Below the pieces are notes generated by a model. It was not told where the DNA came from and did not search any database. It saw only the letters and a list, made by a program, of their open reading frames with translations. Below are positions 17,466-22,963 of a DNA stretch of 64,000 nt, piece after piece (positions within the stretch are counted from its first letter, which is position 1; each line of letters begins with the position of its first letter). This DNA comes from Anaeromyxobacter paludicola (GTDB lineage: Bacteria > Myxococcota > Myxococcia > Myxococcales > Anaeromyxobacteraceae). Made by a program: the position numbers and the translations under genes. Where the stretch lies: contig NZ_AP025592.1 of the NCBI RefSeq assembly GCF_023169965.1, positions 3,410,001 through 3,474,000 on the forward strand. The letters run 5' to 3'.

Positions 17466-18079
17466 ATCCGCCGCTGCTCACGTCCGTCGTGCTCGTCGTC
17501 CTGGGCTACCTGATGGGCTCGGTGCCCTTCGGGCTCATCCTGGCGCGCGCCTTCGCCGGAGTGGACGTGCGCGCCGTCGGGTCGGGCAACATCGGCGCCT
17601 CCAACGTCTCGCGCGCGGCCGGCAAGCTCGCGGGGGTGGTGACGCTCCTCTTCGACGCCGGCAAGGCGGCGCTCCCGATGATCCTCACCCGCTCGCTCCT
17701 GCGCGGCTCGTACGGCGACGCGGCGGCCGGCCACCTCGAGCTCTACGTGGGCGTGGCCGCGTTCGTGGGCCACTGCTTCCCGGTCTGGCTCCGGTTCAAG
17801 GGCGGCAAGGGGGTCGCCACCGGGCTCGGCGTCTTCGCGGTGCTCGCGCCGCTCGCCGCGCTGGCGGCCCTGGTGTCCTTCGGGGTCGTCTTCGCGGTGA
17901 CCCGCATCGCCTCGGTGTCGTCGCTCGTCGGCACCACCGTCTGCGCCGGCGGCGCCATCCTCGTGCACGGGTGGGGGACCGACGTGGCCTGGGGCGCGCT
18001 CCTCATCGCCGCGCTCATCTTCTGGCGCCACCGCGGCAACCTCGCCAGGCTCTTCCAGAAGCGCGAGATCAAGGTCTAG
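17462..18079 (+). CDS. plsY: Glycerol-3-phosphate acyltransferase PlsY
   Basis: A 205-residue inner-membrane enzyme that acylates glycerol-3-phosphate using acyl-phosphate. Family motifs are GSVPFGLI, VGSGNIGASNVSRAAG and RFKGGKGVATGLG. The start is GTG, overlapping the DUF2752 gene. The length is normal. Confidence 0.96.
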   Translation: MNPPLLTSVVLVVLGYLMGSVPFGLILARAFAGVDVRAVGSGNIGASNVSRAAGKLAGVVTLLFDAGKAALPMILTRSLLRGSYGDAAAGHLELYVGVAAFVGHCFPVWLRFKGGKGVATGLGVFAVLAPLAALAALVSFGVVFAVTRIASVSSLVGTTVCAGGAILVHGWGTDVAWGALLIAALIFWRHRGNLARLFQKREIKV

Positions 18080-18121
18080 CGGCGCGCCCGGGGCGGGCGC
18101 GCGGCGGGCCAGGGAGCGGCC

Positions 18122-18547
18122 ATGGAAGGCTATCCGGTGGTGGTCGAGGAGAAGGTCCGCTACTCGGACATCGACGCCTTCAACCACCTCAACAACGTGG
18201 TCTTCTTCCAGCTCTTCCAGCAGGCGCGGGTGGCCTACTTCGAGGAGGTGGGGATCTTCAGCCGCATGGGGCGCGGCGAGCAGAACCTGGTGGTCGGCGA
18301 GACCTCCTGCCGGTTCCTCGCCGAGGGGCACTACGGCGACGTGGTGCAGTGCGGGGCGCGCTTCGCTCGGCTCGGCACCAGCTCCTGCGAGCAGCAGTAC
18401 CGGCTCGAGGTGCGCGGCAAGCCCATCGCCGAGGGGAGCGCGGTGCTCGTCTTCTACGACTTCCAGACCGGCCGCTCGGCGCCGCTCCCGGAGCCGCTCA
18501 AGGCGCGCATCCGCGAGATCGAGGCGCGCGCGGGGCGGGTGATCTGA
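18122..18547 (+). CDS. Acyl-CoA thioesterase (4-hydroxybenzoyl-CoA thioesterase/YbgC type)
   Basis: A 141-residue hotdog-fold protein. The signature YSDIDAFNHLNNVVFFQL carries the catalytic aspartate of this subfamily. The substrate cannot be told; a lipid-related role fits the neighbour plsY. It is 42 bp downstream of plsY, in the same direction. Confidence 0.88.
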   Translation: MEGYPVVVEEKVRYSDIDAFNHLNNVVFFQLFQQARVAYFEEVGIFSRMGRGEQNLVVGETSCRFLAEGHYGDVVQCGARFARLGTSSCEQQYRLEVRGKPIAEGSAVLVFYDFQTGRSAPLPEPLKARIREIEARAGRVI

Positions 18548-18576
18548 GGCCCCGCGGGCGCTAGAACGAGGGCACC

Positions 18577-20349
18577 TTGCCCGCCCCCGAGCTTTCGTCC
18601 GGCGCCCGCGCCGCCGCCCCCCGCGCCTCCCTCCGCCGCCTCTGGCCGCTGTTCCGCGAGGAGCGGCCGGCGCTCGCCCTCGCCACCCTGCTCCTCCTCG
18701 TGGGCTCGCTGGCGGCGCTCGCCTACCCGCAGGGCGTCCGGATCATCGTGGACGGCGCCACCTCCCGGCGCGACCCGGCCGCGGTCCGGGACGCCGCGCT
18801 GCTGCTGGGGGCGCTCGCGGTGCTGCAGGGGCTCGCCGTGGCCGGCCGGGCCTGGCTCTTCGGCGTCGCCGGCGAGCGCGGCGTCCGGCGCGTGCGCGAG
18901 CAGCTCTTCCGCTCGCTGGTCTCGCAGGAGGTCGCCTTCTTCGACGGCCAGCGCACGGGCGCCCTCCAGTCCCGGCTCGCCTCCGACACCGCCGCGCTGC
19001 AGGCGCTCCTCTCGTCCCAGCTCTCGATGGCGCTGCGCAACGGCGTGCAGGTGGCCGGCGCGCTGGCGCTCCTCGTCTACACCTCGCCGCGCCTCACCGC
19101 GGTGATGCTGTCGGTCATCCCGGCGGTGGCCTTCGGCGCGGTCTTCTACGGGCGGAAGATCCGCGGCCTGTCGCGCCGCTCGCAGGACGCCCTCGCCGAG
19201 GCCGGGCACGTCGCCGAGGAGTCGCTCTCCGCCATCCGCACCGTCCGGGCCTTCGCCGCCGAGGACGCCGAGGACCGCCGCTACGGCGCCGCCGTGGCCC
19301 GGGCCTTCGCGCTCGCCCGCGCCCGGGTCCTCGCCGGCTCCGTCTTCCTGGGCGCCACCTACGCCGGCGTCTACGCCGCCATCGCGGTGGTGCTCGGCTA
19401 CGGCGGGGCCCTCGTGGCGCAGGGCGCGCTCACCGCCGGCGCGCTGACCGCCTTCCTCGTCTACACGCTGCTCATCGCCATGGGGCTCGGGACCCTGGCC
19501 GACAACTGGGCGGAGGCGATGCGCGGGCTGGGGGCCGCCGAGCGGGTCTTCGAGCTCGTGGACCGCGCCCCGGCGATGGCGCTGCGGGGCGGGCGCCGGC
19601 TCGAGCGCGTCGCCGGCCGCGTCGCCTTCGAGGACGTCCGCTTCTCGTACCCGCTCCGGCCCGAGGCCGAGGTGCTCCACGGGATCGAGCTGGTGGTCGA
19701 GCCGGGCGAGGTGGTGGCCCTCGTCGGCCCCTCCGGCGCCGGCAAGTCCACGCTCGGCGCGCTCCTGGTCCGGCTCTACGACCCCTCCGCCGGCCGGGTC
19801 ACGCTCGACGGGCACGACCTCCGGGAGCTCGATCCCTCCTGGCTGCGCGCCCAGGTCGGGGTGGTGTCGCAGGAGCCGGTGCTCTTCTCGACCAGCGTCG
19901 CCGAGAACGTCCGCTACGGCCGCCCCGGCGCGAGCGACGCCGAGGTGCGCGAGGCCCTCGCCGGCGCCAACGCGCTCGACTTCGTCCAGGGCTTCCCCGA
20001 CGGCCTCGCCACGCGCGTGGGCGAGCGGGGGCAGCAGCTCTCCGGCGGCCAGAAGCAGCGGGTGGCCATCGCCCGGGCCATCCTCAAGGACCCGCGGCTC
20101 CTCCTCCTCGACGAGGCGACGAGCGCGCTCGACGCCGGCTCGGAGGCGCTGGTGCAGGAGGCGCTCGCGAGGCTCATGCGCGGCCGCACCGCGATCGTCA
20201 TCGCCCACCGGCTCTCCACGGTGGTGGGCGCCGACCGGGTGGTGGTGATCGACGGCGGCCGGGTGATCGAGTCGGGCGGCCACGCCGCGCTGGTCTCGCG
20301 CGGCGGCGCCTACGCCCGGCTGGTGGAGCGGCAGGTGCTGCGCGGGTAG
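18577..20349 (+). CDS. ABC exporter, fused permease-ATPase (MsbA/multidrug type)
   Basis: A 590-residue half-transporter. Six transmembrane helices (about residues 30-320) precede an ATPase with Walker A GPSGAGKST, a Q-loop (VGVVSQEPVLF), signature LSGGQKQR and Walker B LLLLDEATSALD. It would homodimerise. The lipid or drug substrate cannot be inferred from sequence alone; nearby plsY and thioesterase genes make a lipid substrate plausible. The start chosen is TTG 18577, 29 bp after the thioesterase stop; no better in-frame start is visible. Confidence 0.93.
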   Translation: MPAPELSSGARAAAPRASLRRLWPLFREERPALALATLLLLVGSLAALAYPQGVRIIVDGATSRRDPAAVRDAALLLGALAVLQGLAVAGRAWLFGVAGERGVRRVREQLFRSLVSQEVAFFDGQRTGALQSRLASDTAALQALLSSQLSMALRNGVQVAGALALLVYTSPRLTAVMLSVIPAVAFGAVFYGRKIRGLSRRSQDALAEAGHVAEESLSAIRTVRAFAAEDAEDRRYGAAVARAFALARARVLAGSVFLGATYAGVYAAIAVVLGYGGALVAQGALTAGALTAFLVYTLLIAMGLGTLADNWAEAMRGLGAAERVFELVDRAPAMALRGGRRLERVAGRVAFEDVRFSYPLRPEAEVLHGIELVVEPGEVVALVGPSGAGKSTLGALLVRLYDPSAGRVTLDGHDLRELDPSWLRAQVGVVSQEPVLFSTSVAENVRYGRPGASDAEVREALAGANALDFVQGFPDGLATRVGERGQQLSGGQKQRVAIARAILKDPRLLLLDEATSALDAGSEALVQEALARLMRGRTAIVIAHRLSTVVGADRVVVIDGGRVIESGGHAALVSRGGAYARLVERQVLRG

Positions 20350-20859
20350 GGCGCAATGCCAGTCACCGAGCGAGCTCCCCTCGTTCGAACGGCGCCCGCG
20401 CGCCGAGCCCTGACCTTCTTCGGGCCATGACGCGGGCGGAGGGCGCACGCGCGAACGATCTCGTGGAGCTCGGCGGCGGCGCCGCCGCCTCGCCGGACGG
20501 GTCCGAACGCACGGGGCCAGGGGCGCGCGAAACGAGGCCGCGCCCGCGAGGAGGATCGGCCAGCCGTCCCCGGGGAAAGCTCGTGCCGGAAGCTCCCGCA
20601 GCTTGTGTCGCCTGCTGCCGATCCATCTCGTTACCCATGCACCCAATCCGGACCCCGTGTTCGCTTGACAGGGCCGCGGGCTTTTCCGCCTCGCGGCGGT
20701 CCCGCGCGCTGGGCAGGCCCCTCCGGACGCATCCGGCTTCCCCTGCGCGGCGCGCCCGCCGTGTCCGAGGGAGCGCGGAGGCTGCTCCGGGAAAGCCCGG
20801 CCACGGACCGCCCAGACCCCTTCCCGGAGGGCTCGAAAACCGCTGGTACAACGGAGTCC
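20350..20859. other. Non-coding left flank of the HNH gene
   Basis: This 510-bp gap holds the left inverted-repeat arm (20418-20551). The rest, 20552-20859, has a lone TTGACA at 20665 without a good -10 box and no convincing gene. The stretch immediately before the HNH start contains TACAAC 8 bp upstream of the ATG. Confidence 0.6.
20418..20551. repeat. Left arm of a 134-bp imperfect inverted repeat
   Basis: It matches, in inverted orientation, 22232-22365 on the other side of the HNH gene. Three anchors are colinear: 20 identical bases at the inner end, 31 identical bases in the middle (20466-20496, containing an 18-bp perfect palindrome of GGC/GCC), and 10 bases at the outer end. Confidence 0.75.
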
Positions 20860-22140
20860 ATGAACGCTCCGCTCTCCTTCGACCTGACCGCACTGTCCGA
20901 CCGCGCGCTCCTCGAGGCCCTCACCTCGCTCGTCCGGCGCGAGCGCGAGGTCACCGCCGAGGTCGTCGCGCACCTCGCCGAGGTCGATGCTCGCAGGCTC
21001 TACCGCGACCACGCCTGTCCCTCGATGCACGCTTACTGCGTGGGCGTGCTCCACCTCGCCGACGAGGCCGCCTACAAGCGCATCAACGCCGCCCGTACGG
21101 CGCGCCGCTTCCCTGCCGTCCTGGAGATGCTCGCCGACGGCAGGCTCCACCTCTCCGCCGTATGCCTCCTTGCGCAGCACCTCACCGAGGAGAACCACGG
21201 AGCCCTCCTCGACGCCGCGGTCCACCGCAGCAAGCGCGACATCGAAGAGCTCCTCGCCGAGCGATTCCCCCGGCCGGACGTGCCCGCGGCGCTGCGCAAG
21301 CTCCCGAGCCCGTTGCCGCGCTTCGCGCCATCGGCGCCGCCCGAAGCGCCGCCGCTTGTCGCTCCGCCGCAAGCGCCCTCGCTTCTCCCTCGGCCCGAAG
21401 CGCCATCACTCCTCATTGCGCCCGAAGCGCCGTCGCGCCGCATTCCCCCCGCTGCGCTCGCGCCCTCCGCACCGGTCGTCGCGCCGCCTCCTCCTCCGCG
21501 CCCCGTGCTCGCTCCGCTCGCGCCCGAGCGCTACAGGCTCCAGCTCACCATTTCTCGCCAGACCCGCGACCGGCTGGAGGAGGCCCGGGACCTGCTCGGC
21601 CATCAGATGCCGGCCGGAGATCTCGCCGAGGTGGTCGACCGCGCGCTCGAGCTCCTGGTCCGGGAGCTTCGCAAGCGGAAGTTCGCCGAGACCCGAACGC
21701 CGCGCGCGCCCAGGTCCGCCCCGGCGACCGAGGGCTCACGGCACATTCCCCACCACGTCCGGCGCGAGGTGGCGCTTCGCGACGGGAATCAGTGCACCTT
21801 TGTCGCCGAGGACGGACGGCGCTGCCCGGCGCGCCGCAGGCTCGAGTTCCACCACCAGCGGGTCGCGTTCGCGAAGGGCGGGGAGGGGTCGGCCGACAAC
21901 CTCTGCCTCCGCTGCACCGCCCACCACGGGCTCGCGACGGAGCAGGAGTTCGGCCGCGAGCACGTCGCCCGACGGGTCGCCGAGGCCCGGTTAGCGCGCG
22001 AGCGCCTCCGCGGTGCCAAGGCGCCTTCCCCGGGAGTGGCGAGCACCCCCCGCGAGCGCCGCCGCGAGGCCAAGCCACCGTCCCCGGGAACGGCGAGAAC
22101 GGCCAGCACTCCCTCATCGTTCGCGTTCGGCCCGACCTGA
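20860..22140 (+). CDS. HNH endonuclease with DUF222/13E12-like N-terminal region
   Basis: A 426-residue protein. I chose the ATG at 20860 because the conserved region (LSDRALLEALTSLVRREREVTAEVVAHLAEV) begins there. The helical N-terminal domain resembles the 13E12/DUF222 repeat family. A Pro/Ala-rich low-complexity linker (about residues 150-218, repeated PEAPS units) follows. The C-terminal HNH nuclease region (about 300-368) has C312, H331/H332, C349, C352 and H355/H356. The tail is Arg/Pro-rich. The gene stands alone between inverted repeats, suggesting a homing or mobile role; this is inference. Confidence 0.85.
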   Translation: MNAPLSFDLTALSDRALLEALTSLVRREREVTAEVVAHLAEVDARRLYRDHACPSMHAYCVGVLHLADEAAYKRINAARTARRFPAVLEMLADGRLHLSAVCLLAQHLTEENHGALLDAAVHRSKRDIEELLAERFPRPDVPAALRKLPSPLPRFAPSAPPEAPPLVAPPQAPSLLPRPEAPSLLIAPEAPSRRIPPAALAPSAPVVAPPPPPRPVLAPLAPERYRLQLTISRQTRDRLEEARDLLGHQMPAGDLAEVVDRALELLVRELRKRKFAETRTPRAPRSAPATEGSRHIPHHVRREVALRDGNQCTFVAEDGRRCPARRRLEFHHQRVAFAKGGEGSADNLCLRCTAHHGLATEQEFGREHVARRVAEARLARERLRGAKAPSPGVASTPRERRREAKPPSPGTARTASTPSSFAFGPT

Positions 22141-22522
22141 CCGATGGCTCGGCGGGGCGGGCCTTCCGTGCTCCACCCGGCCGGTCCCTCCCACCGGGCG
22201 CGATGCGGCGAGCTTCCGTGAGGGTTGTTCACCTCGCGGGCGCGGCCTCGTCGCACGGGCCCCCGCGTTCGCGCGTGCAGGCTCCGCCCGGCGAGGCGGC
22301 GGCGCCGCCGCCGAGCTCGCGGGAGCGCTCGCGCGCGACCCTCCCCTCGTCGTCCTGGCCCGAAGGCGGCTCGCCGGACAGGGCCGCGGTCGAAGCAGAC
22401 TGGCCCCGTCGCGCTGGCCGGCGCCGGAGCCGGAGTGCGCGCGCCCCGACCACTGACAGAGAGGCACGGCGGAAGGCGCTCCGTGAACGGGATGGCGGCT
22501 ACCTGCGCCGCGCGGCTCCGGC
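22141..22522. other. Non-coding right flank of the HNH gene
   Basis: This 382-bp gap holds the right inverted-repeat arm (22232-22365). The remaining sequence up to the convergent gene ending at 22523 shows no gene, RNA or clear terminator. Confidence 0.6.
22232..22365. repeat. Right arm of a 134-bp imperfect inverted repeat
   Basis: Inverted partner of 20418-20551, of the same length. The 31-base central match lies at 22288-22318. The arm starts 91 bp after the HNH stop codon. Confidence 0.75.
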
Positions 22523-22963
22523 TCAGCGGAGCAGCGACTTCACGAGGTGCGCCCCGAGCTCGCGCAGCCCGGCGTCGAGCGCGGCGCTGCCCTTCTCGGA
22601 CTGGAGCGTCGCCCGCAGGGCCTCCGGCGCCAGCCCGAGCTCGAGGTTCACCCGGACGAGCACCGCCGAGAGGGCCGGGCCCGCCGCGGCGGCCTTCACC
22701 TTGCCGCCGCGCTCCTGCATCGCCTTCGCGATCCGATCCAGGAGGGCGTCCTCGCTGGTGCGCGGGCCCTGCTGGTCGAAGAGCGCCTCCGAGATCCCCC
22801 AGTGGAGATCCTCGAGGAGCTCCGGCGCCGCGAGCGCCAGGGCGAGCCGCTCGCGCGCCTCCTCCTCGTCCACCGACATCGCGGCCGCGTAGGTGGGGGC
22901 GACGAGGGTGACGAGGTCCTTGCGCGGGAAGAGGTGCGGCAGGCGCTTCGAGAAGAGGGGCAC
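22523..22963 (-). CDS. Conserved-looking hypothetical protein downstream of ftsK
   Basis: A 146-residue, mostly helical, soluble protein with a normal GC-rich codon pattern. I do not recognise a family. The N-terminus (LFSKRLPHLFPRKDLVTLVAPTYAAA) has no signal peptide. It lies 60 bp after ftsK on the same strand, so it is probably cotranscribed with it. Confidence 0.75.
   Translation of the reverse strand: MPLFSKRLPHLFPRKDLVTLVAPTYAAAMSVDEEEARERLALALAAPELLEDLHWGISEALFDQQGPRTSEDALLDRIAKAMQERGGKVKAAAAGPALSAVLVRVNLELGLAPEALRATLQSEKGSAALDAGLRELGAHLVKSLLR

Follow-up and report, generated by a model that had tools for sequence, protein, structure and literature searches.

The window, a stretch of 64,000 nucleotides from the Anaeromyxobacter paludicola genome (a single contig of 4.59 Mb), contains at positions 20354-22495 a 2142-bp element (copy A) that is one of several dispersed copies in this genome. 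Copy A consists of terminal repeats of approximately 20 bp (CAATGCCAGTCACTTGACGA), two long inverted arms, a leader, and an HNH nuclease gene (Table 1). As the initial annotation had described, the two 134-bp arms are arranged in colinear blocks and enclose a single HNH gene without an operon partner, i.e., one ORF with a Pro/Ala-rich, low-complexity linker at residues ~139-229. The arms are 80% alike over 134 bp, and their gapped alignment reached a score of 130, whereas the best of 300 shuffles scored 44; in the three pairing blocks, of 35, 45, and 46 nt, the complementarity is 97%, 78%, and 72%, respectively.

These arms are not the ends of the element: when the copies were aligned, the true ends were located 64 bp further to the left and 130 bp further to the right. 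The arms are therefore subterminal, because the homology among copies continues outward to conserved ends, and in the alignment of arms with their flanks the outward homology extends to a conserved CAATGCCAGTCAC. A stable DNA hairpin formed by the arm was also considered and rejected, since its folding was no better than that of shuffled sequences. Within the arms, a 28-bp core (20465-20492 and the other nine arms in the genome) stands out, while the arms elsewhere differ by up to 22%. No known RNA family was matched in an Rfam search of the window, including the leader.

Table 1. Features of copy A (positions in the window) and related copies (positions in the genome)
Feature	Position	Strand	Remarks
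ABC transporter gene (left neighbour)	18577-20349	+	its stop codon is 4 bp to the left of the element
Left terminal inverted repeat, CAATGCCAGTCACCGAGCGA	20354-20373	+	homology common to the copies begins here; matches the IS4 right end TAATGCCAGTCAGTTAAGCA
Left subterminal inverted arm, invariant core CTCGGCGGCGGCGCCGCCGCCTCGCCGG	20418-20551	+	ten copies in the genome; core identical in 10/10
Conserved leader, arm to gene	20552-20859	+	copy B 86% identical over 20354-20856
HNH nuclease gene, intact, 426 aa	20860-22140	+	ORF list; family alignment; H331, N346, and H354 invariant (query numbering)
ParB/Noc-like helical DNA-binding domain (predicted), query residues 26-137	20938-21273	+	pLDDT mostly >85; ParB/Noc/Spo0J/KorB are the first 14 rows of structural matches, Z up to 9.2
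Pro/Ala-rich low-complexity linker	21277-21549	+	pLDDT <50; aligns poorly in the family
HNH nuclease domain, query residues 290-369	21730-21969	+	PF01844 in 19/20 relatives; structural matches IscB, EcoKMcrA, GVE2 HNH
Right subterminal inverted arm	22232-22365	-	arm alignment; among the ten genome copies
Degenerate right terminal inverted repeat, minus-strand sequence CCATCCCGTTCACGGAGCGC	22476-22495	-	aligned with other ends
Conserved short gene beside ftsK (right neighbour), convergent	22523-22963	-	ORF list and flank comparison
Copy B	2687264-2689305		arm pair; gene split between frames (frameshifted)
Copy C	3993076-3995065		arm pair; gene split between frames (frameshifted)
Copy D	302965-304058		arm pair; gene fragment (truncated)
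Copy E	near 3883000		single arm
Copy F	3691903-3692656		single arm; gene fragment (truncated)
Remnant G	3482466		shorter remnant

The HNH protein

Residue numbers refer to the query sequence, which begins at residue 2 of the 426-aa protein. The three residues of the HNH catalytic motif are invariant in 20 relatives, nearly all of which match the Pfam HNH model, while the window protein itself falls short of every Pfam model. DUF222 is matched by one of 20 members (1.3e-5) and not by the window protein. The IscB model covers the HNH stretch only (13.7 bits versus a cut-off of 175), the rest of the protein being ParB-like domain and linker, and the RuvC and HNH pair of IscB/OMEGA was not found in it. 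A plasmid or phage origin was rejected as no match was obtained and viral matches were limited to the HNH domain; a defence system was likewise rejected, the PADLOC matches being weak and at the level of the HNH domain.

The predicted structure has a mean pLDDT of 65, with confident regions limited to residues ~20-135 and the greater part of the HNH domain. The DNA-binding domains of ParB, Noc, Spo0J, and KorB match the N-terminal domain with Z scores of 8-9 and an rmsd of 2.5-3.5 over ~100 residues, although helical domains in general can give Z scores below ~13. The match is moderate for a helical domain and is taken as a similarity of predicted fold, and neither as a proven function nor as family membership. 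ParB-type domains bind palindromes, which is in line with the invariant palindromic arm core and with the hairpin targets described below. Among intact copies within a genome, median dN/dS values of 0.21-0.58 indicate that the nuclease gene is under purifying selection between copies.

Copies in the A. paludicola genome and corresponding sites in a congener

Further arm copies, whose absence would have spoken against the mobile unit proposed in the initial annotation, are present: the genome contains ten good ones, which form four inverted pairs (copies A-D) and two single arms (E and F). Homology to the HNH gene follows the arm positions, and the gene is intact in copy A. The occurrence of solitary arms and of a mixture of end types points to recombination among the copies. 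All six arm-bearing copies (A-F) lie where two genes converge, in most cases only a few bases away from the stop codons; the flanking genes were called with a simple gene finder based on codon usage. Direct repeats of 9-10 bp are located next to the ends of copy F (perfect, GCCCTAGGCG), copy B (9 of 10), and copy D (8 of 9; one mismatch each for B and D), and none abuts the ends of copies A and C. The earlier remark that no target duplication is visible thus applies to copy A and not to its sister copies B, D, and F. As the stop codons TAG/CTA abut the ends, a duplication of the TA or CTAG type was also considered; it was rejected because A and D do not fit it and the 9-10-bp repeats fit better. 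A pattern search of this genome (0-1 mismatches) for an autonomous element with the same ends returned only the known copies. Two further HNH genes of another subfamily (L038 and L039) occur in this genome without recognisable ends.

The comparison with element-free sites in relatives, also put forward in the initial annotation, was informative for three of the copies. In the only congener sampled (G001), the gene pairs of sites B, C, and D are present and the element is missing, with the convergent genes of site C being 10 bp apart; the exact pre-insertion sites are unreadable because the intergenic sequence has diverged. At site A, both the element and the ABC transporter are absent from G001, for which reason this site is uninformative and the insertion of copy A undatable. 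Across window positions 17494-22963, plsY and a thioesterase gene are only ~66% identical to the congener (L113), the next gene and ftsK are 91-94% identical, and the ABC transporter and the element that lie between them are absent from G001, which suggests a rearrangement breakpoint. At sites D and F, the congener carries hairpin repeats of the type CCCTCTCCC...GGGGAGGG instead of the element (L201 and L203); such repeats are possibly the natural target type.

Elements in sister genera

The gene family was found in 22 of the 24 family genomes (one genome per species), with up to ~34 matches per genome. The rest of the phylum is sparsely populated (18 of 117 genomes, 13 of the 18 belonging to this family), and members also occur in Eisenbacteria and Oligoflexales bins. 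Elements in G004, G006, G010, and G011 end in CTSANSATTCRTCACAWST, and the 19-bp end pattern gave 73 matches in five genomes as opposed to none for the reversed control. Among 19 further loci retrieved around such ends, away from the listed copies, 17 are HNH elements or remnants, two are solitary ends, and none has a transposase; solitary terminal repeats at L290 and L302 are without an HNH remnant. The ends of the G002 copies were not definable. Long subterminal arms are present in G004 and in one G007 subfamily as well, so the architecture seen in the window is not unique.

Many intact copies with perfect duplications are present in the relatives. Target duplications in the sister genera are 9-11 bp long, and 16 of 27 elements reach the threshold (a score of 8 or more), which is reached by 0.07% of displaced positions and by 5.7% of cross-pairings, the latter rate being raised because the target GGGCGCAGCCC recurs. 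The duplications are centred on hairpins of six or more paired bases in nine of 17 cases, versus 1.7% of random points, e.g., CCCCGCC-GCA-GGCGGGG and GTGCCT-GTA-AGGCAC. Of 60 sister-genus elements, 33 have convergent neighbours, an arrangement seen in 14 of 130 background gene pairs (p = 2e-10; genes called with the same codon-usage finder). This preference is weak in G007, where element ends lie in GGTCGG repeats.

Terminal repeats and transposases

The terminal repeats of the window genome share AATGCCAGTCA with the ends of E. coli IS4, which were taken from annotated records. On a profile of ten ends from the window genome, the IS4 right end scored 16.4 bits, a value reached by none of 300,000 random sequences. 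The end type differs by host, being IS4-subgroup-like in the window genome and Tn5/IS50-like in the sister genera. G007 contains an insertion sequence in two near-identical copies (99.4%), the transposase of which matches the solved Tn5 transposase (E 2.5e-33) and carries PF14706 and PF01609. Its left end (CTGACTATTGATCACATCT) scored 24.6 bits on the profile of HNH-element ends and its right end 8.5, so that the only Tn5-like insertion sequence seen fits the sister-genus ends well on one side only. The OE and IE of Tn5 scored 5.1 and 9.1. Out of 119,240 background positions, five or fewer scored as high in each case. The ends of elements that carry one nuclease family appear to come from two IS4 subgroups. 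In G007 (L309, L311, and L145-L163), HNH elements and the Tn5-like insertion sequence both lie within GGTCGG hexanucleotide repeats, and two HNH copies adjoin remnants of insertion sequence ends.

None of the element copies examined carries a transposase. The IS4-type transposase domain PF01609 is present in G002, G007, and G011, and is absent from the window genome, G001, G003, G004, G006, and G010; elements are numerous in G004, G006, and G010 although these genomes are without it.

Discussion

The comparison of copies and sites shows that the element is mobile. The initial annotation had proposed a mobile or homing unit that moves with its own flanks; the mobile part is upheld by the dispersed copies with different flanks, the congener sites without the element, the terminal repeats, and the duplications at sister copies, whereas homing was not shown. 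The ends, the duplication length, and the palindromic nature of the targets are typical of transposition by IS4-family DDE enzymes. The element is best explained, with a probability of roughly 0.7, as a non-autonomous transposon of the IS4-family type that has the nuclease as its only gene and is mobilised in trans by DDE transposases. In this reading, an IS4-family DDE transposase acting in trans would cut and paste the element via its terminal repeats, and the predicted nuclease would serve as an accessory for retention or spread, as TnpB/IscB do for IS200/IS605 elements. The nuclease may bind a palindrome (that of the arm core or that of the target hairpin) and may cut unoccupied sites, after which repair would restore or copy the element. 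IS4-family duplications are ~10 bp long (PMC2266710), and a member of the family inserts on the axis of REP palindromes, which are often located between convergent genes (PMC1525189). The absence of PF01609 from the window genome and from three genomes rich in elements, the missing duplications of copies A and C, and the one-sided match of the G007 insertion sequence to the sister-genus ends speak against this reading.

An unlikely alternative is that the HNH protein itself mobilises the element, with its ParB-like domain binding the ends or arms and staggered cuts being made at hairpins without any DDE enzyme. It would be in keeping with the nuclease being the only gene linked to these ends, with the purifying selection on this gene, with insertions centred on hairpins, and with several multi-copy hosts having no IS4-type transposase, but we know of no HNH transposase. 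The ends, moreover, match those of IS4 and Tn5 type, which are used by DDE enzymes, and duplications of 9-11 bp are the norm for the IS4 family (PMC2266710). Still less probable is a homing element, in which the nuclease would cut unoccupied sites and the element would spread solely via recombinational repair: HNH homing nucleases are common, the predicted fold is of a sequence-specific DNA-binding type, and the target hairpin recurs, but target duplications and unrelated flanks indicate transposition, and homing alone makes neither. That old, inactive repeats are involved, in which the gene survives by chance, is very improbable. In its favour, frameshifts affect copies B and C, D and F are truncated, the arms are only 78-97% alike, and copy A lacks a duplication; nevertheless, the gene of copy A is intact, intact copies with perfect duplications are numerous in the relatives, and dN/dS values lie below 1.

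A more far-reaching reading, less likely than not, is that a nuclease of ParB-like fold and HNH domain directs its own element to be inserted or copied at DNA hairpins, alone or partnered with IS4-family transposases; it would be a DDE-side counterpart of TnpB/IscB that was adopted by at least two IS4 subgroups.

Several known systems resemble parts of this arrangement. The shared terminal sequence and the ~10-bp duplications at sister copies are as in the IS4 subgroup, from which the element differs in having no transposase gene and in carrying an HNH nuclease and long subterminal inverted arms; an IS4-family member has a DDE transposase with a YREK motif in a single ORF, whereas the only gene here is the HNH nuclease. 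The IS50/Tn5 subgroup is approached by the 19-bp ends of the sister genera (similar to the G007 insertion sequence and the Tn5 OE/IE), the 9-bp duplications, and the palindromic targets, again except for the missing transposase. IS200/IS605-type elements with only IscB or TnpB are transposon-like units in which a nuclease is the only gene and a transposase is lacking. The present elements share this gene content, and an IscB-type HNH is among the nearest structural matches; unlike them, they have no RuvC, the window has no Rfam match, and their ends and target duplication are of the DDE type. The REP13E12/DUF222-HNH repeats of Mycobacterium also have a multicopy HNH gene with a helical N-terminal domain, and one relative matches DUF222, a match not obtained with the window protein. 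REP-targeting insertion sequences such as ISRm22 insert on the palindrome axis, often between convergent genes, but encode their own transposase (PMC1525189). KolobokP is described as a eukaryotic DDE transposon lineage that encodes a His-Me finger homing nuclease; the association of a DDE-type transposon with such an endonuclease is similar, whereas KolobokP encodes both enzymes and the present elements the nuclease only (PMC9587614). Finally, a MITE is a short, non-coding unit with the ends of an autonomous element, whereas the present one is 2.1 kb long and contains an intact gene whose family is under selection. A literature search of partial coverage found no account of these elements.

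On the IS200/IS605 side, transposase-less nuclease genes within transposon ends led to the biology of TnpB and IscB. The elements described here represent a comparable arrangement on the DDE (IS4-family) side, in which an HNH nuclease with a ParB-like domain is present in up to ~34 copies per genome. A hairpin target between convergent genes provides safe ground for insertion, and whether accessory nucleases aid the persistence of DDE transposons becomes a testable question. In this bacterial family, the reading would also account for a large set of multicopy 'HNH endonuclease' genes that had lacked an explanation.
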